IMG/VR virus record: IMGVR_UViG_3300042868_003670
Coordinates: 1 to 34,418 of that record
Length of the DNA: 34,418 nt
Source: a virus
Strand: one strand, 5' to 3'
Of the stretch, positions 23,105-34,418 are shown piece after piece. Position 1 is the stretch's first letter. Each line of letters begins with the position of its first letter. The position numbers and the translations under genes are program-made. Under the pieces are notes generated by a model. It made no database searches, had not been told where the DNA came from, and saw only the letters and a list, made by a program, of their open reading frames with translations.

Positions 23105-23141
23105 CAACACAGCATAATTATTGTATAGAAAAGGAAAAGCA

Positions 23142-24140
23142 ATGACACTTAAACAAATAGCACAAGTACTGCCAGCCAGTTTACTTAAAGAAGTAAGCGA
23201 ACATATCTCCACTGTGCCTTGGCGGTATGGCTGGGCATCAAACAAAAGCATTGAGTTCACACATTGGAATCATGACTTTACAGGAGCGCCAGTTTACAAC
23301 AGTCTAGACTGCGCTGCAGAACTGCCAGAACCCATTAAGACTGCATGGCATTACATACAGTCACAGTTCCTGGGAGCCCAATGCTTGCTACGCTGTTATG
23401 TCAACAGTCACACTTATGGTGTAGAAGGTTATCCACATACAGATTCAAAGCGTGATGCAGACAATACCCTGGTTGTTTACATGAACCCAGAATGGCGGCG
23501 TGATTGGGGCGGCGAAACCATGGTGTATGATGGTTATAACATTGTTCACGCTGAGTTGCCCAAGTACAACAAAGGACTTGTGTTCCCAGGTGCCAAAACA
23601 CATCAGGCCAGGAGTGTCACACGCATTTGTCCCGCACAGAGAATAACGCTAATGTTCAAGTTTTGCGCAGCAGACACTGACACACAGCGTGATCGCATTC
23701 AACAGTTTGTCACAGCAGTTGGCGCACACAAGATCAAACATTCAGGCGGCACTCTGGCTGCTCACTTGCTTAACACATACGATATCTTAAAAGCAAATGA
23801 TTATGATCAAGTCTCTTGTAATGCTGGTGCGCTACACAGTATCTTTGGCACCAATGCGTTCAAGACAGAAATACTAAAGTTAGAAGATCGTGCGCAAGTT
23901 GTTAATGTAATTGGGGAAGAAGCCGCCAGTCTTGTTGAACTGTTTCATTACATTCGTCGTCCACATGCGTTGGAACGTGCGCTGGCCACCAATACACGCC
24001 TGGTTGATGCCAATACGGGTAATCCAATTACCTTAACACAGGCTCAACTAAATAGACTATGCGCCATTGAAGCGGCCAATCTGAGCGATCAGAAGGCCTT
24101 GAAGAATTACGAACATCTTCGCAAACTAATAACGAAATAA
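23142..24140 (+). CDS. 2OG-Fe(II) oxygenase fused to a DUF6817-like (HD-type) domain
   Basis: A 332-aa protein. I chose ATG 23142, preceded by AAGGAAAAGC; an upstream TTG is in frame but lacks a ribosome site. Residues ~1-175 are a prolyl-4-hydroxylase-like 2-oxoglutarate/Fe(II) oxygenase: H99-T-D101, TLVVYMNPEW, DWGGET, distal H154 (KTHQAR) and R167 for 2-oxoglutarate. Residues ~195-275 (HSGGTLAAHLLNTYDIL; LHSIFGTNAF) resemble DUF6817, a His-rich helical domain. Such oxygenases hydroxylate proteins or nucleotides using O2 and 2-oxoglutarate; the substrate here is unknown. It lies within the tail operon. The first domain is firm; the second is likely. Confidence 0.8.
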   Translation: MTLKQIAQVLPASLLKEVSEHISTVPWRYGWASNKSIEFTHWNHDFTGAPVYNSLDCAAELPEPIKTAWHYIQSQFLGAQCLLRCYVNSHTYGVEGYPHTDSKRDADNTLVVYMNPEWRRDWGGETMVYDGYNIVHAELPKYNKGLVFPGAKTHQARSVTRICPAQRITLMFKFCAADTDTQRDRIQQFVTAVGAHKIKHSGGTLAAHLLNTYDILKANDYDQVSCNAGALHSIFGTNAFKTEILKLEDRAQVVNVIGEEAASLVELFHYIRRPHALERALATNTRLVDANTGNPITLTQAQLNRLCAIEAANLSDQKALKNYEHLRKLITK

Positions 24141-24151
24141 CAGGAACGGGT

Positions 24152-25396
24152 ATGTCAAAACATAAAAAAAGTAAGAACAAAGATTATCAGATACCAGCAG
24201 ATGAAATGCTGTCAGATGATGGCACACCCGTCAACAAAAAGAAACGTGCCAAAGGCGATCCAGCTTACGGCTCTATCCCATCTGGTCCCGTAGCACCTGA
24301 TCCAGAATCAGCTGCACAACACTTGCAGCGTTTTGGACTTGGCAAGGACACCATCCTGGCACACATTACTGAAGAAGAAGCGCAAGTATTAAAACAGCGT
24401 GGTGGCTCTGGTGCTGTTAACCCATACACTGGTCTATTAGAATTTGACGGTGACGGTGGTGGTGATGGTGGCGGGGGCGATGGTGGTGGTGGAGACGGCG
24501 GAGGCGATGGCGGAGGCGATGGCGGAGGCGATGGCGGAGCAGGTGACGGTGGTGACGGCTCAGGAAGTGGTGATGGCGCAGATGGCGCAGATGGCGCAGA
24601 TGGCGCAGATGGCGCTGCTGATGGTTCTGCAGATGGCTCTGGTGAAGGCTCTGGTGAAGGCTCTGGTGAAGGCTCTGGTGAAGGCTCTGGTGAAGGCTCT
24701 GGTGAAGGCTCTGGTGAAGGCTCTGGTGAAGGCACAGGTGAAGGAACTGGTGAGGGAACTGGTGAAGGTGAAGGAACTGGTGAGGGCGAAGGCACAGGCG
24801 AAGGTGAAGGCACAGGTGAAGGCGAAGGTGAAGGCGAAGGCTCAAGTAGTGGGCCAGGTGGTTCATCTGGAGAGTCAGGTGCAGCAGCAGGTGGCGCAGG
24901 TCCAGGCGGACCTGGTGATGATGGTGGCGGCAGCGGTGGCGGAGATGGACCTAGTGATGGACCTAGTGATGGCGGTGGCTGGGGTGGTGATGGAGGTGGT
25001 GGTGATGGTGGTGGTGGTGGCGATGGAGTCACACCAGTTACACCTGTAGTGCCTGGCAATCCCAGAATTCCTGGTACAACCTGGAGTGACGTTAATAAGC
25101 AAACTGGTCTAAGTCCTGGCTTTATGCAAGCACAGCCATACTACAACACAACAAATGATGTTCAATCCAAATACTATTGGGGTGGCGCACCTATGCAAAC
25201 TGGTGCTACATTTAACCCAGCGCAAGCTCAGAATATTCCACAAGCACCTGTAGTGCCCTGGGGCATTCAGGAAATTGCACAACAACTAACTCCAGAAGAA
25301 ACTGCACAGTTGATATATGGCTTACAGCCACAGCAACAAGCACAACCTGGATATGCTATTCCACCAGAGTGGTTACAGCAATGGCGTAACAGTTAA
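24152..25396 (+). CDS. Glycine-rich repeat protein (virion or assembly protein, unknown)
   Basis: A 414-aa protein: a basic N-terminus ([10 protein letters not shown]), a short folded part to ~90, then ~200 residues of Gly/Asp/Glu/Ser low complexity ([14 protein letters not shown] repeats). A Pro/Gln-rich C-terminus follows (~295-414, [29 protein letters not shown]). The repeats come from short tandem DNA units. The disordered acidic middle could be a flexible linker in the virion. It sits between the oxygenase and the internal proteins, with a CAGGAAC ribosome site. Long - strand frames over this region are shadows of the repeats. No family recognised. Confidence 0.8.
24497..24538 (+). repeat. 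GGCGGAGGCGAT 12-bp tandem repeat (~3.5 copies)
   Basis: Perfect copies at 24497, 24509 and 24521 and a half copy at 24533 encode GGGD-type repeats in the glycine-rich gene. Confidence 0.9.
24572..24616 (+). repeat. GATGGCGCA 9-bp tandem repeat (4 perfect copies plus 1 variant)
   Basis: Copies at 24572, 24581, 24590 and 24599, with a GATGGCGCT variant at 24608, encode DGA repeats. Confidence 0.9.
24635..24730 (+). repeat. GGCTCTGGTGAA 12-bp tandem repeat (8 perfect copies)
   Basis: Eight identical units in a row encode (GSGE)x8, followed by diverged GTGE and GEGT units to about 24840. Identity at the base level, including the third codon positions, indicates recent slippage expansion. Confidence 0.95.
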
Positions 25397-25430: not shown

Positions 25431-26153
25431 ATGAGTTTTGGCAAAGGCGGAGGCAGCACGCAAACAACTGTAGAAATGACTCCAGAACAAAAAGAACAAA
25501 TTGCGCTGCAAAACAAGTTCTTCAAAGAAACAATTGCACCCACATACGAAGGTGCTGTTCGTGGTGCCACAGACATTTACAATAAGAATGCTCCTGGAGC
25601 ACTAAATGCTGCTCAGAATCAAGCTCGCACTGCTATGCAAGCACAAGAAGCCTTGGGTGGCACTGGTGAAAGTGCGCTACGCTCAGGTATCAGTGGCTTA
25701 CAAAGTCTGTTTAATCCAGATTATGAGCGCACACAAATTGCAGCCGCATTGGCACCAGCACAAGCACAGTATGCACAAAACGTAGAAATGCAAGGACGCA
25801 GTTTTGGTGGCACTGGCAACCTAGGTAGTGCCCGTCAAGCATTAGCAGATCGTCAATTGGCAGGCGCAACACAAAGCGCACAGATGAAAACTGCTGCTGA
25901 CATTCAGCAACAAATTGCCGCACAACGAGCAGGTGTTGGCGCACAATTAGCACAACTTGGCCAAGGCGGTATTGGACAAGCATTAGGAGCCTCAGGCAGC
26001 GCAGTAACAGCCTCCATGGTTCCACAACAGTTATACAACCAATATGCCTCAGTGATCTTTGGTACACCTTCAGGAAGTTATAATCCAGACTTCCGTGGTA
26101 CACAAAGTAGTTCAGGAACATCCAGCAATTGGAATATTGGCGCAAAAATTTAA
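25431..26153 (+). CDS. Putative internal virion / ejection protein (small)
   Basis: A 240-aa protein rich in Ala, Gln and Gly, almost entirely helical after a Gly-rich start (SFGKGGGSTQTTVEMTPEQK). Long amphipathic helices occur at ~20-95 and ~105-205 (AQYAQNVEMQGRSFGGTGNL, then QMKTAADIQQQIAAQRAGVG). The C-terminus is Ser/Gly-rich. Small Ala/Gln-rich proteins next to a large lytic protein resemble the ejection-protein sets of T7 (gp14-16) and P22 (gp7, 16, 20), which leave the head and form a channel across the envelope. The call is from composition and neighbours. Confidence 0.6.
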   Translation: MSFGKGGGSTQTTVEMTPEQKEQIALQNKFFKETIAPTYEGAVRGATDIYNKNAPGALNAAQNQARTAMQAQEALGGTGESALRSGISGLQSLFNPDYERTQIAAALAPAQAQYAQNVEMQGRSFGGTGNLGSARQALADRQLAGATQSAQMKTAADIQQQIAAQRAGVGAQLAQLGQGGIGQALGASGSAVTASMVPQQLYNQYASVIFGTPSGSYNPDFRGTQSSSGTSSNWNIGAKI

Positions 26154-26162
26154 GGATAATAT

Positions 26163-29132
26163 ATGGCATACGATGCATTTGGTGAATACACAGGTGGACA
26201 GCGTGATCCTTACGAGGAAGAACGTTTGCGCCAGGAAGAAGAAGATAGAAAACGCAGAGAAGAAGCGGAACAACTGGCTCGTGCTGCTGGAGTTGCAGGT
26301 GGCTACGTGCCTGGCGGCCCTGGTGTGGCTGGTGGTGAAGGCTCTGGAACTTACTATGATGCTGAAGGCCGTTTAATTGTTCCATCACCCAGTTCAGGAC
26401 CTATTGCGCCTGATTCTGATCCCCTGGGTTCATTTATTGCACAAAAGTTACAAGGTGTTAAGGATCGTTTTGGACAAGTACAAACTGCTTTTGAAGACCC
26501 AGCTAAAGCATTTCAAGAACGTATGGATGCTGCCACTGCTCCAGTCAAGCCTGATGCAGTAGTTAAGAAAGAACAAGTAGAAACTCGTGCTGACGGAACC
26601 AAGGTTGTAAAGACAACACAAGAGTTACCAAGTGCTGCACCAGCGCAGGCCTTTCCAGTTGCCCCACCTGGCGGCTTTCAGGGACAGACTGATGAATTTG
26701 GTGGTGTTGATGCTGCTGTTGCGCAACAAGCAAGACAAAATGCACAGACTCCCGCAGCAGTAAGCACAGCATTACCATCAACAGGTGTCGCTGCTGCTCC
26801 AGCTGCTGCTTCTGACTACAATGCACGTATTGCACAAATGGAATCTGGTGGACGTGATGACATTGGTTATCATGATCGTAGTAAGAGTAGCGCATATGGC
26901 AAGTATGGCATCACAGACAAAGCATGGACAGATGCACAACGTGCTAATCCAGCATTGGCAGGTGTTCGTAAAGAACAAGCAACTCCAGCACAAATGGAAC
27001 TGGCACAAAATGCAGTTACAAACAACAATGCCAGATACCTGGGCAAGTTGGGTGTTGAAGTTAATCCCAACACATTAGCAGCCGCACACTTTATTGGTGC
27101 TCAAGGTCTTGCAAATTACTTGCGTGATGGCACCATAAGTGAAGGTGCTATCAAAGCCAACGGTGGCTACGACAAAGCAAAACAAATTATTGATCAACGC
27201 CTGGGTGGCGTGGCTGCTCCAGCATCAGGTGCCGCACAACAACAGCGTCCAGCTCCTACAGCGCCTGTTGCTCCTACACTGACTGCTCCAGAAGCTCCTG
27301 TTGCTGCACCAGAAGCAGTAAGCCCATACAGTTTAAGCACTGGCCAAACAGGCCTGGGTTTGCGTATGCCCACAACACCTGCTCCAGTAGCTAGTCCATC
27401 AGCACAAGCAATCAGCACATATCAAGCAGTGCAAGATGACCCTATGGCATTATTGAAACTGCGTCAAGATTCTACAGTACCTGCTTTTATTCGTGAGCGT
27501 GCAGGCGCACAAGCATATGAGTTATTGAACCGTGAACGCAAAACAGCAGCCGCAGAAACGCAAGTTGAGAAGATGGTTGCTGCTGGTGATCAGAATACAA
27601 TTGCTAAAACTTTAGCCAGCAAGCCCAAGACAGAAGAAGGCAGTTTCTTAAAGGCAGTGTTGTATGCTCGCTTGGGACTAACAGATCTTGCTGCTGAAGA
27701 ACAACAAAAATTAGGTGCTGGCACCAAGTGGACCAGCATTACAGGTCCTGATGGTGAAAATGCACTTGTTAAAGTTGCTGCCAATGGACGCCCATTAGAA
27801 GGTGTAAAGAGTGATGGCACTGCTTTCACAGAAAATGAATTAATTAAGTTTGGTGGCAACGCTGGTGTTAAGTTTACCAAGCCAGATGTATCAATGCAGG
27901 ACGTGGAAAAGGATGGCCAGAAAGGTCGTGTTGTTACAACATATGATCGTAATAATAAGCCAACCACAGTGGTTGAATCTGGTGGCAAGACATTCAAGTA
28001 TGATGCCACATGGAAGCCAACCTCAATTGGTGTTGCCGCAGAGAAAGCTGAAACAGCAGCAGGTATCAAATTGCGCTATGCAGGTCCTACAAGTTACACA
28101 GAAGCAGGTGCAGCAGCAGCTGGTAAGTTTAATTTTGAGAATGGCACTAACATTGGTTATGCGTCACAGACTCCAGGTGCTCCGCTAGTTGACTTGAACA
28201 CAGGTAAGCCAGTGGCAGTAAGTGCTGGTGGTGTTATCACAACTACACAAACAGGCATTCCTGGTGCGGCTGCACCTGGAGGTGTTACAACTACTGCTCC
28301 AGCAGCCGTAGGCGGTCAGACACCAGCACAAATTACTGGTGAAAGAGAAATTGGTAAAGTTGCCAAAGAACAGTTTGTTAAAACAACTGTGCCAGCAGTG
28401 CTTGAACAAGGCAATAATGGTCGTGACATTGCAACTGCTCGTAGACAACAAGTTGCTATCATTGAAAACAATCCAAGCATCTTGGATATCTACAATGGTT
28501 CAGGTGACAACTATGATCGTGGTCGTAATGTTATCAGCAAGTTGTTGACAGGTGCTTACAATGAAAACAACTCAGGTGACTTCTACAAAGATGTCAAAGG
28601 CACAGGCTTAGACAGCAATCAACGCAGTGCATTAGAGCAAATGTGGAACTTGACAAGTGGTATCAACGGCAAGACATTGAAGACCAACACAGGTGGTGGA
28701 CCAATCAGTAATGCTGATATGAAGACCAACCAAGCAGCCAACTTGCAAAACTTTACAGAAACAACACCACTGGGTGCGCTACAAGTTATTAACCGTAGCA
28801 AGTTCACTGGTGACTTGGACACTGCCAAAGCCGCGTTTATTGCCAAGAATCCTAACTTGAATGATGAAGTCAAATTTAATGATGCCTGGTCAAAAGAAAG
28901 CGCAAGATATACCAAAGCGTATGAAGGTATTGCAGATGCTAGAGCACAGTTCTTGAAACCATTTGCTCCACCTAGAGACGCTACACGAGAACAACTCAGT
29001 GTGTTCCGTGACAAGGTATTCAAATCGTTTGAAATGTATCCTGTTCCTGCATATGATGCTGAAGCAGGTAAGTGGAGTTATGGTACAGCCAACGCTGAAC
29101 GAGCAGCCGCTAAGAAACTATTAGGAAGATAA
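26163..29132 (+). CDS. Large internal virion protein with lytic transglycosylase domain
   Basis: A 989-aa protein. Residues 16-42 are a charged helix (YEEERLRQEEEDRKRREEAE). A disordered Pro/Ala linker reaches ~215. Residues ~218-345 form an SLT/lysozyme-like domain: IAQMESGG with E227 as the likely catalytic acid, SSAYGKYGI, and AAAHFIGAQGLANYL. The rest (~350-989) has Pro/Ala stretches, a beta-rich segment (~545-650) and a long helical C-terminus. T7 gp16 likewise joins a transglycosylase to a very large ejection protein that opens peptidoglycan during DNA entry. It may also be the only lytic enzyme here. The domain is well supported; the ejection role is inferred. Confidence 0.75.
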   Translation: MAYDAFGEYTGGQRDPYEEERLRQEEEDRKRREEAEQLARAAGVAGGYVPGGPGVAGGEGSGTYYDAEGRLIVPSPSSGPIAPDSDPLGSFIAQKLQGVKDRFGQVQTAFEDPAKAFQERMDAATAPVKPDAVVKKEQVETRADGTKVVKTTQELPSAAPAQAFPVAPPGGFQGQTDEFGGVDAAVAQQARQNAQTPAAVSTALPSTGVAAAPAAASDYNARIAQMESGGRDDIGYHDRSKSSAYGKYGITDKAWTDAQRANPALAGVRKEQATPAQMELAQNAVTNNNARYLGKLGVEVNPNTLAAAHFIGAQGLANYLRDGTISEGAIKANGGYDKAKQIIDQRLGGVAAPASGAAQQQRPAPTAPVAPTLTAPEAPVAAPEAVSPYSLSTGQTGLGLRMPTTPAPVASPSAQAISTYQAVQDDPMALLKLRQDSTVPAFIRERAGAQAYELLNRERKTAAAETQVEKMVAAGDQNTIAKTLASKPKTEEGSFLKAVLYARLGLTDLAAEEQQKLGAGTKWTSITGPDGENALVKVAANGRPLEGVKSDGTAFTENELIKFGGNAGVKFTKPDVSMQDVEKDGQKGRVVTTYDRNNKPTTVVESGGKTFKYDATWKPTSIGVAAEKAETAAGIKLRYAGPTSYTEAGAAAAGKFNFENGTNIGYASQTPGAPLVDLNTGKPVAVSAGGVITTTQTGIPGAAAPGGVTTTAPAAVGGQTPAQITGEREIGKVAKEQFVKTTVPAVLEQGNNGRDIATARRQQVAIIENNPSILDIYNGSGDNYDRGRNVISKLLTGAYNENNSGDFYKDVKGTGLDSNQRSALEQMWNLTSGINGKTLKTNTGGGPISNADMKTNQAANLQNFTETTPLGALQVINRSKFTGDLDTAKAAFIAKNPNLNDEVKFNDAWSKESARYTKAYEGIADARAQFLKPFAPPRDATREQLSVFRDKVFKSFEMYPVPAYDAEAGKWSYGTANAERAAAKKLLGR

Positions 29133-29133
29133 T

Positions 29134-29952
29134 ATGACAGAAGCAGAAGTAGAAAAATTACGAGCAGGTGGTATCAGTGATGCCATCATCCTTGAAATGC
29201 AAAAAGATGAGAGCACTGCTAAAGGACAGGCTGCTCCTGCTGCAACGGCCACAACTGAATTGCCAGAAGTTGATCCTAACACACCTAGTCGTGTTTACAG
29301 CCAAGCACAATCTGCTGGCACACCAACTGAAGGCGCAGGACAAACATGGGCACAAACTGGTGCTGAACTTGGTGGAGTATTAATTGATAATGCTGGCAAG
29401 ATTGGATTGGGTGGTTTAGGTGCCGCTGGCTTAGGTGCTGGTGCAATGTATAAACGCGGCAAAGGAATTGAATTAGAAACAGAAAAACTGAGACAGCAAG
29501 GCATTCAAAATCGCTTTGACGCAAGAGCCGCACAACAAGCCGCACAACAAGCCAGACCAATGCCAGTGGCACCAGGTCCTTTAGTAGATGCCCAGGGCCG
29601 CCCAATGCAAATGCAAGCAAGGCCAGTTGCTCCTGCTGGTGCTGTGCCCACTGCTCCTATTGCTCAAGCCGCAGAACAAGGTGTTGTAAATCGTGCCAAA
29701 CAAGTTGTGCAACAATTGGCTCTGAGCAAACTTGCACCAATGGCCACTAACCTGTTAAAAGGTGCCAATGTGGCCAGTCTTGCTGGATACAGTGCAGACT
29801 TGGGTCCTAAGACTCCGCAAGCAGGTCGTATGCGTGGTATGGAAATTAACCCTCTAACAGGTGCTCCATGGACTCCAGAACAAATTGCACAGTACGAAGC
29901 CAATCCTGCACAGTATGATGCGCAGATGGCACCGCCACAGTTTCGTAGGTAA
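29134..29952 (+). CDS. Internal virion protein with glycine-zipper membrane segment
   Basis: A 272-aa protein. Residues 3-24 form a short helix-turn-helix like motif (EAEVEKLRAGGISDAIILEM). Residues ~80-105 are a Gly/Ala-rich hydrophobic segment (NAGKIGLGGLGAAGLGAGAM) of glycine-zipper type. Residues ~109-205 are Ala/Gln-rich helices with a Pro-rich break, and the end is Pro/Tyr-rich. It starts 2 nt after the transglycosylase gene. The membrane-inserting zipper plus its neighbours suggest an ejection protein that lines a channel in the inner membrane. I do not recognise a named family. Confidence 0.65.
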   Translation: MTEAEVEKLRAGGISDAIILEMQKDESTAKGQAAPAATATTELPEVDPNTPSRVYSQAQSAGTPTEGAGQTWAQTGAELGGVLIDNAGKIGLGGLGAAGLGAGAMYKRGKGIELETEKLRQQGIQNRFDARAAQQAAQQARPMPVAPGPLVDAQGRPMQMQARPVAPAGAVPTAPIAQAAEQGVVNRAKQVVQQLALSKLAPMATNLLKGANVASLAGYSADLGPKTPQAGRMRGMEINPLTGAPWTPEQIAQYEANPAQYDAQMAPPQFRR

Positions 29953-29960
29953 GTAAGCAT

Positions 29961-30392
29961 ATGACAACAGCAGAACAACTAACCCAAATCTTCAAAGACA
30001 ACTTTGTTGTTTACTTTCGTAGCCATGTGGCACATGTAAACATTACTGGTCGCACATTCCAAAGCGATCATGAATTGCTTGGTGGTATCTACGAAGCTAG
30101 ACAAGCACAAATTGATTTCATTGGCGAGCTATTACGCACACTAGGTGAATATATGCCTTGTGATATTAGTGAAGTGCTGTCAGACAGTCAATTTGGCACA
30201 GATGAGTTATCTGGTAGTGCTGACTTTTTACTTGAAGCTGTCAAAGAAGATTTAGAATTCTTAGCAAATGAATATCGTGAACTAATTGTAATTTCTGAAT
30301 TAGAAGATGAAACCCAGATTGCCAACTACGCACAAGAACAAGTTCTGAGTTTAGCCAAGCAAATCTGGATGTTAAATTCTACATTAAGTTAA
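29961..30392 (+). CDS. Dps-like ferritin-fold protein with intact ferroxidase ligands
   Basis: A 143-aa, mostly helical protein. Residues H25, H37, D52 and E56 have the same spacing (12, 15, 4) as the ferroxidase ligands of Dps proteins (H31, H43, D58, E62 in Listeria Dps). The context also fits: HVNITGRTFQSDHELLGGIY corresponds to the Dps HW-x-x-G-x-x-F-x-x-x-H pattern. Length (143) is typical of a short Dps. Dps stores iron and protects DNA from peroxide; whether this protein oxidises iron or is a structural derivative is unknown. It is the last gene of the internal-protein operon, 8 nt after the previous gene. Confidence 0.7.
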   Translation: MTTAEQLTQIFKDNFVVYFRSHVAHVNITGRTFQSDHELLGGIYEARQAQIDFIGELLRTLGEYMPCDISEVLSDSQFGTDELSGSADFLLEAVKEDLEFLANEYRELIVISELEDETQIANYAQEQVLSLAKQIWMLNSTLS

Positions 30393-30479: not shown

Positions 30480-30971
30480 TCACTTTAATCGCTTGTATGC
30501 GTATGATCCACGCACACTATAACCCGCACGTTCATGCAGTTTTAAGAAGCCTGCTTGATCATGACGCATCGTAGTACTACAAATAATGTAGTTGCCAGCA
30601 TAGTTTGCCAGACGTTCCCAATGCTCCATCATATCTTTTACTAATTTAACTCGCATGCGCGATGGCAATACCAGATCCACATGTGCCATGCAAACAATCA
30701 CCATTGGGTCATCACTCCAACAAGCACGATCTCCACTCTTGGCCCAAGTATAAGCAAGTAAACGGTTATCATCTTGTGCTCTGCACACTGTAATCATCTG
30801 CGTTCCTGGATAGTAGATCTGATTCATAATAGCAAATGTTATATTACGAGTCATTGTAGGTACTTCAGGCGAGAAGATATCATCAATCTCTGTTTCAAAG
30901 TGTTGTTTTGCCATGCTGACGATATCATTTGTATCGCTCATGTCAGCAAGTCTCCATTCATGTTCTATCAT
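30480..30971 (-). CDS. GNAT-like acetyltransferase, minus strand
   Basis: A 163-aa protein on the minus strand. I chose ATG 30971 because AAAGGAAT precedes it; an upstream in-frame TTG at 30986 would overlap that ribosome site. The pattern fits GNAT: MIEHEWRLADMSDTNDIVSM at the start, a strand VCRAQDDNRLLAYTW, HVDLVLPSRMRVKLVKDMM as the acyl-CoA-binding strand-helix, and a closing GFLKLHERAGYSVRGSYAYK. The usual (Q/R)xxGxG loop is not exact (PSRMRVK), so activity is uncertain. It is one of only two minus-strand genes, wedged between two late operons. The substrate is unknown. Confidence 0.65.
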   Translation of the reverse strand: MIEHEWRLADMSDTNDIVSMAKQHFETEIDDIFSPEVPTMTRNITFAIMNQIYYPGTQMITVCRAQDDNRLLAYTWAKSGDRACWSDDPMVIVCMAHVDLVLPSRMRVKLVKDMMEHWERLANYAGNYIICSTTMRHDQAGFLKLHERAGYSVRGSYAYKRLK

Positions 30972-31021
30972 TTCTATTCCTTTCAAGTGATACTTTATTT
31001 AATGTCGCAGCGGTAGCCATG

Positions 31022-33927: not shown

Positions 33928-34254
33928 ATGACAGATCCAATCATTCGTGACACAATGATTGATCAAGCACAACAACAGCGTATGACTCGTGATACGCTTA
34001 TTATGCAAAAGGTCAATCATGCACATCGTGAAGCGTTTATACAAAAGTTTCCAGGGCAGTTAGAACACTGCATGCGACTAACAGCAGAACGCTTGCAAGC
34101 TGTGTTAACCAACAAGCCCACAGCATTGAACAATCCAGACACTTGGGCTGCTTCAGCTGCTGAGATTGCCAGTTTAAGTGAAGCACTATGGCACCTGAGT
34201 GTTATTAGTCAAATTTACCCAATGGAGATCAGCAATGACCAACATAGCAAGTAA
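33928..34254 (+). CDS. Hypothetical helical protein
   Basis: A 108-aa, almost entirely helical protein with an amphipathic N-terminus (IIRDTMIDQAQQQRMTRDTL) and a central helix rich in Ala and Leu. It starts 2 nt after the preceding gene and overlaps the 66-aa gene by 20 nt. Its last codons also appear at positions 1-24. It belongs to the chain of genes that runs into terL. Function unknown. Confidence 0.75.
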   Translation: MTDPIIRDTMIDQAQQQRMTRDTLIMQKVNHAHREAFIQKFPGQLEHCMRLTAERLQAVLTNKPTALNNPDTWAASAAEIASLSEALWHLSVISQIYPMEISNDQHSK

Positions 34255-34418
34255 TGAAGATAGTGGATTTGATGTCATTGGCAAATGGATCAGTGAACAG
34301 CATTGTCATTTGACCTTTCGTCTTAACGAAGATGGCCTGGGCGAAACTGAAATTGATTATGATTTTGACCGTTATGATCTTGCTTTCTTGCGTGATATCA
34401 TTACTGAATTTTTAGATT
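34231..34418. repeat. Terminal redundancy, right copy (matches 1-188)
   Basis: It matches positions 1-188 with one substitution (C at 34291 for T at 61). It shows that the genome closes on itself. It may be an assembly overlap from a mixed population or a true terminal repeat. Confidence 0.95.
34235..34418 (+). CDS. Partial second copy of the 66-aa gene (5-205)
   Basis: The frame starts at ATG 34235 and runs off the window end after about 61 codons. It is the same gene as 5-205, with one synonymous change, and should be counted once in the circular genome. Confidence 0.9.
   Translation, partial: MTNIASNEDSGFDVIGKWISEQHCHLTFRLNEDGLGETEIDYDFDRYDLAFLRDIITEFLD

Follow-up and report, generated by a model that had tools for sequence, protein, structure and literature searches.

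Among bacterial Dps proteins, those most similar to the phage protein described here include HP-NAP, Listeria Dps, Campylobacter Dps, and B. anthracis Dlp-1, which share its length and fold and, like it, have no extended basic tail. DNA binding by E. coli Dps depends on a lysine-containing N-terminal tail; Dps proteins that lack the tail (e.g., that of Listeria) do not bind DNA and owe their protective effect to ferroxidase activity.

Dps genes are also known from phages. The SU10 paper (PMC4281155) compares five C3 phages and reports a Dps-domain gene in every one of them; such a gene is also known from Lactobacillus phages (PMC6669764). In the SU10/phiEco32 group (e.g., SU10 gp67, GAP52 gp62), Dps is a middle gene, with dCTP deaminase, thioredoxin, and anaerobic ribonucleotide reductase as neighbors (PMC4281155). 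The Dps gene of Synechococcus phage S-EIV1 adjoins sulfate adenylyltransferase. Roles in oxidative stress have been proposed for the Dps proteins of gut phages, Gratiaviridae included (PMC8008677), and freshwater phage genomes carry ferritin with other ROS-defense genes (PMC6802176). In the accessible parts of these two papers, neither core status nor operon linkage was found described for Dps of freshwater or gut Caudoviricetes.

The window analyzed here is the whole of IMG/VR record IMGVR_UViG_3300042868_003670, a stretch of 34,418 bases from an uncultivated bacterial virus. Positions 1-188 and 34231-34418 are identical at 187 of 188 positions, which makes it likely that the window covers an entire genome of about 34.2 kb that closes into a circle and is either permuted or terminally repeated. 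The last ORF is followed by terL in relatives such as L005. The window encodes a terminase, a SU10-type portal, and a SU10-type major capsid protein. The closest annotated capsid protein (61% identity) belongs to an uncultivated podovirus from Manatee Spring; at the nucleotide level, the late half of the window matched no known phage.

Like the SU10/phiEco32 group, this virus is a Dps-bearing podophage with a portal and capsid protein of SU10 type, and the Dps proteins of both fall in the same PHROG, phrog_3636. They are only about 24% identical, however, and the window Dps has internal-virion-type proteins rather than metabolic enzymes for neighbors. The S-EIV1 protein is about 30% identical to that of the window and has the same ligands, whereas its gene does not adjoin virion-type genes as Dps does here. 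The nearest viral model in BFVD (A0A6J7WGJ1, uncultured freshwater/gut Caudoviricetes) is 43% identical and already named Dps; since phage Dps has also been reported before, the protein itself is of an already known phage kind. No earlier description of a fixed Dps position behind internal-virion-type genes was found in the limited open-access literature.

Fold, ligands, and conservation of the Dps protein

The 143-aa ORF at 29961-30392 encodes a genuine Dps miniferritin. It matches PF00210 at 1e-9 (38.9 bits; curated cut-off 24.5) and phrog_3636 at 2.7e-25. Its best PDB matches are all Dps-type, the first being HP-NAP (1ji4, 2.9e-12), and a 12-sequence profile matches Helicobacter cinaedi CAIP at 7.6e-21. 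The AlphaFold monomer model (mean pLDDT 93.1) consists of four long helices and a short BC helix, spanning residues 3-27, 33-60, 69-75, 87-114, and 118-142 in the Dps helix order. The best Foldseek match is again HP-NAP (3t9j, TM 0.95, rmsd 1.3). VIA-align gives Z scores of 20-23 against about 50 Dps-type entries, reaching 22-23 for S. suis Dpr, HP-NAP, and Listeria Dps; a note that accompanies the tool puts unrelated helical bundles far below this range.

Read directly from the translation, the motif H-x11-H-x14-D-x3-E corresponds to H25, H37, D52, and E56, a numbering identical to that of HP-NAP at 27-29% sequence identity. By analogy, H25 and H37 of one subunit and D52 and E56 of a partner subunit are the predicted ferroxidase ligands. 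Relatives were drawn from IMG/VR, where a first scan gave 14 and a profile scan 192, of which 80 were kept. All four ligands are invariant in 110 of 110 distinct relatives, and H22 is likewise invariant over 110 distinct family sequences. The count includes, through L165:1290-1718, an outlying branch of this Dps family to which L211-L215 also belong and whose C-terminal half is strongly different; the L165 protein keeps all four ligands. The family is under purifying selection, with a median pairwise dN/dS of about 0.19 (Nei-Gojobori, pairs with dS < 1.5). The sequence-only reading had named a four-helix bundle and ligand conservation in related phages as the points on which its Dps assignment would stand or fall; the model and the 110 relatives bear out both.

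The same reading had called the ferroxidase spacing exact. This holds for the four ligands, at the positions it gave, but two other residues are noncanonical. Residue 41, four residues after the second His, is presumably equivalent to the fifth acidic site of many Dps proteins (Asp67 in E. coli). It is G in the window protein, and among the 110 relatives it is Q in 67, G in 21, E in 16, and K in 4. The residue after the first His, usually Trp in Dps, is V26 here; the 82 sequences inspected have V, A, or I. Both features, residue 41 being mostly Q or G, set this phage Dps apart from the HP-NAP group. Because the phage Dps proteins of S-EIV1 and S-SRM01 are also non-acidic at position 41 (G in both), the change is not taken as a loss of function, and an acidic residue there is probably unneeded. 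Judged from sequence, the altered residue 41 and the missing Trp could together change the rate or the oxidant preference of the enzyme. A ferritin fold recruited for structure or assembly, with no catalytic role, would suit the linkage to virion-type genes described below, but with all four catalytic ligands invariant in 110 of 110 relatives it is extremely improbable.

The late gene cluster and its distribution

The Dps gene lies at the end of a series of late genes arranged as follows.

23121-24140: 2OG-Fe(II) oxygenase fused to DUF6817, an accessory gene
24152..25396, + strand: Gly/Asp/Glu low-complexity late protein, 414 aa, opening the four-gene cluster upstream of Dps
25431..26153, + strand: conserved late protein, 240 aa, probable internal/ejection protein, upstream of Dps in all testable relatives
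26163..29132, + strand: internal-virion/ejection-type protein, 989 aa, named from the PHROG matches of its orthologues
29134..29952, + strand: Ala/Pro/Gln-rich ORF, 272 aa, with its stop 8 nt before the Dps start
29961..30392, + strand: Dps/miniferritin gene, 143 aa, ATG start, identified by Pfam, PHROG, PDB, model, and conservation
30480..30986, - strand: convergent ORF closing the cluster, 168 aa, GNAT-like by eye

The 414-aa protein contains a long Gly/Asp/Glu/Ser low-complexity tract with DGGG and GEGS repeats, and its orthologues among the relatives range from about 370 to 1255 aa. The 240-aa protein has no significant PHROG or PDB assignment. In the 989-aa protein, residues ~218-312 resemble a lysozyme/transglycosylase domain, and an ESGG...YGKYGIT stretch typical of muramidase/transglycosylase domains is recognizable by eye. 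Orthologues of this gene match PHROGs for lytic tail protein, endolysin, and internal virion protein with endolysin domain. Different members match different endolysin or lytic PHROGs, and the lytic domain appears to be exchanged between relatives. The 272-aa ORF is poorly conserved in sequence, yet most relatives hold some ORF at that place. The convergent ORF, which has no Pfam match, stands at the end of the cluster in 101 of 106 Dps-bearing relatives and is present also in 34 of 45 sister-lineage loci.

An AGG-containing stretch lies just 5' of the Dps start. In nearly all relatives the gap to the preceding ORF is between -4 and +10 nt, a 4-nt overlap being frequent, and this spacing suggests translational coupling of Dps to the preceding ORF. 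A promoter of its own was considered for Dps and rejected, as no + strand promoter-like site was found between 29057 and the gene start; a promoter-like site at 29029 and terminator-like sites occur at about background density, and the predicted RNA fold downstream of Dps is not significant (z 0.26). Thirty-five distinct relatives have 6.5 kb or more of sequence upstream of Dps, and in every one of them that stretch carries homologues of both the 240-aa and the 989-aa gene. The sequence-only reading had placed Dps at the end of an ejection-protein operon. The synteny agrees with that placement, and the label is a reasonable one in view of the lytic and internal-virion PHROG matches of the 989-aa orthologues and the muramidase-like stretch in the window protein.

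For the distribution of Dps, 80 loci were fetched with the window terminase at 80% identity or more; 37 were informative, reaching at least 5 kb upstream or showing the Dps gene, and the others stop too soon upstream of terL to be informative. Dps is present in 37 of 37 informative contigs, 3.4 to 5.4 kb before terL. A sister lineage, to which the Manatee Spring phage belongs, has the terminase, portal, and capsid genes in common with this one, as well as several others, and Dps was found in none of its 24 records, most of which are about 40 kb. In a comparison of gene families, ferritin occurs in 26 of 26 lineage records versus 0 of 16 sister records. Because of this universal presence, its absence from the sister records, and its constant position, Dps looks like a core late gene of the lineage, unlike a sporadic auxiliary gene. 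The simplest reading of the pattern is a single gain or loss of Dps close to where the two lineages separated, after which the gene stayed in place. A recent host origin of the gene was rejected: motif-based scans of GTDB genomes for Dps or the terminase gave no relative and thus no host clue, the motifs being strict enough to leave distant ancestors possible.

The constancy of position bears on whether Dps serves the survival of the host against external oxidative stress (sunlight, protist grazing), its late place being a historical accident kept by synteny. Kavagutti et al. propose phage-mediated ROS defense in freshwater phages and list ferritin (PMC6802176), and in other phages Dps lies among metabolic genes of the early or middle region. 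Prolonged host life fits a late position poorly, however, and no informative contig lacks Dps or has it elsewhere, as would be expected of a typical auxiliary gene; a host-survival role is accordingly quite unlikely.

Iron handling had also been suggested as a theme of the late region, joining Dps with the 2OG-Fe(II) oxygenase. This was rejected: the oxygenase is accessory, present in only 6 of the 26 lineage records in which ferritin is universal, and 2OG oxygenases are common in phages, so that no conserved iron theme emerges.

DNA binding, virion packaging, and proposed function

The chain of the phage Dps starts at helix A, without a basic tail. The family is also strongly acidic, unlike the HP-NAP group, with a pI of 4.2-4.7 and a net charge of -12 to -21 per subunit. 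Direct shielding of phage DNA by bound Dps, as earlier proposed, is therefore unlikely, and by analogy the protein is expected to protect in the manner of Listeria Dps, through ferroxidase activity and with no coating of DNA. The corresponding alternative, in which a DNA-binding Dps proper condenses the phage DNA or shields it inside the cell, can point to membership in the Dps branch and to a PHROG family named "DNA binding protein". That name stems from annotation with no test behind it, and given the absence of a lysine-rich tail and the negative charge of every subunit, this alternative is very improbable.

Linkage to virion genes raises the question of packaging. Dps cages could be incorporated into the prohead together with the internal proteins, travel in the particle, and carry iron or guard the packaged DNA from oxidation. 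The constant, often overlapping linkage to internal-virion-type genes favors this account, as does the occurrence in BFVD of Dps-like domains inside longer proteins of uncultured phages (290-763 aa), some of which (A0A6J7WPK9, A0A6J7XDU5, A0A6J7WIS1) bear the database name "Prohead protease"; through these proteins a direct tie between a ferritin cage and prohead assembly is possible. Several points stand against it. A Dps dodecamer is about 9 nm wide and could not pass the portal channel intact, the high acidity of the protein would be unfavorable beside packed DNA, and the sister lineage makes related heads without Dps. A further point in favor is that the SU10 middle-gene product gp67 was seen by mass spectrometry in concentrated phage (6 peptides), but the sample was PEG-precipitated rather than CsCl-purified, and its authors warn of non-structural proteins (PMC4281155). 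Packaging in this general form is possible but on balance unlikely, and the narrower proposal that the cage is a prohead or virion constituent co-assembled with the ejection proteins in this lineage is doubtful. If it were true, each particle would carry an iron-oxidizing and possibly iron-loaded compartment protecting the genome or the entry step from oxidation. The link to marine phage particles and the Ferrojan horse hypothesis, also raised from the sequence, is unsupported, no sign of a marine origin or of Dps in virions having been found.

The reading preferred here, with a probability of roughly 0.6, is that of a phage-adapted miniferritin that acts late within the infected cell to clear Fe(II) and peroxide. 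Dps would be made late in infection, and its coupling to the ejection operon, presumably through co-transcription, would set its timing and dose and is no proof of a part in the virion. The subunits are predicted to assemble into a dodecamer with 12 inter-subunit di-iron sites (H25, H37 / D52', E56'), which would oxidize Fe(II), preferably with hydrogen peroxide, and the ferric mineral would be stored within the cage. Both Fenton reagents would thus be removed, probably in the cytosol, at a time when the host is failing and newly copied phage DNA builds up along with virion proteins, to the likely benefit of the phage and apparently without any coating of DNA. Phage ferritins have been read as ROS defense in freshwater (PMC6802176) and gut phages (PMC8008677). 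Against a late miniferritin of this kind stand the noncanonical residue 41 and Trp position and the location of SU10-group Dps among middle metabolism genes; its constant tie to ejection-type genes also stays unexplained by cytosolic protection alone.

Phage Dps genes have so far been treated as occasional auxiliary genes. Here, Dps is an invariant, tightly linked late-cluster gene of a large uncultivated podophage lineage, lacking in the nearest sampled sister. The lineage is therefore well suited to asking whether phages ever package ferritin; a Ferrojan-horse reading would need such packaging, for which no evidence was found. It also makes stress from oxidation or iron, around virion assembly or lysis, a selective pressure open to testing.
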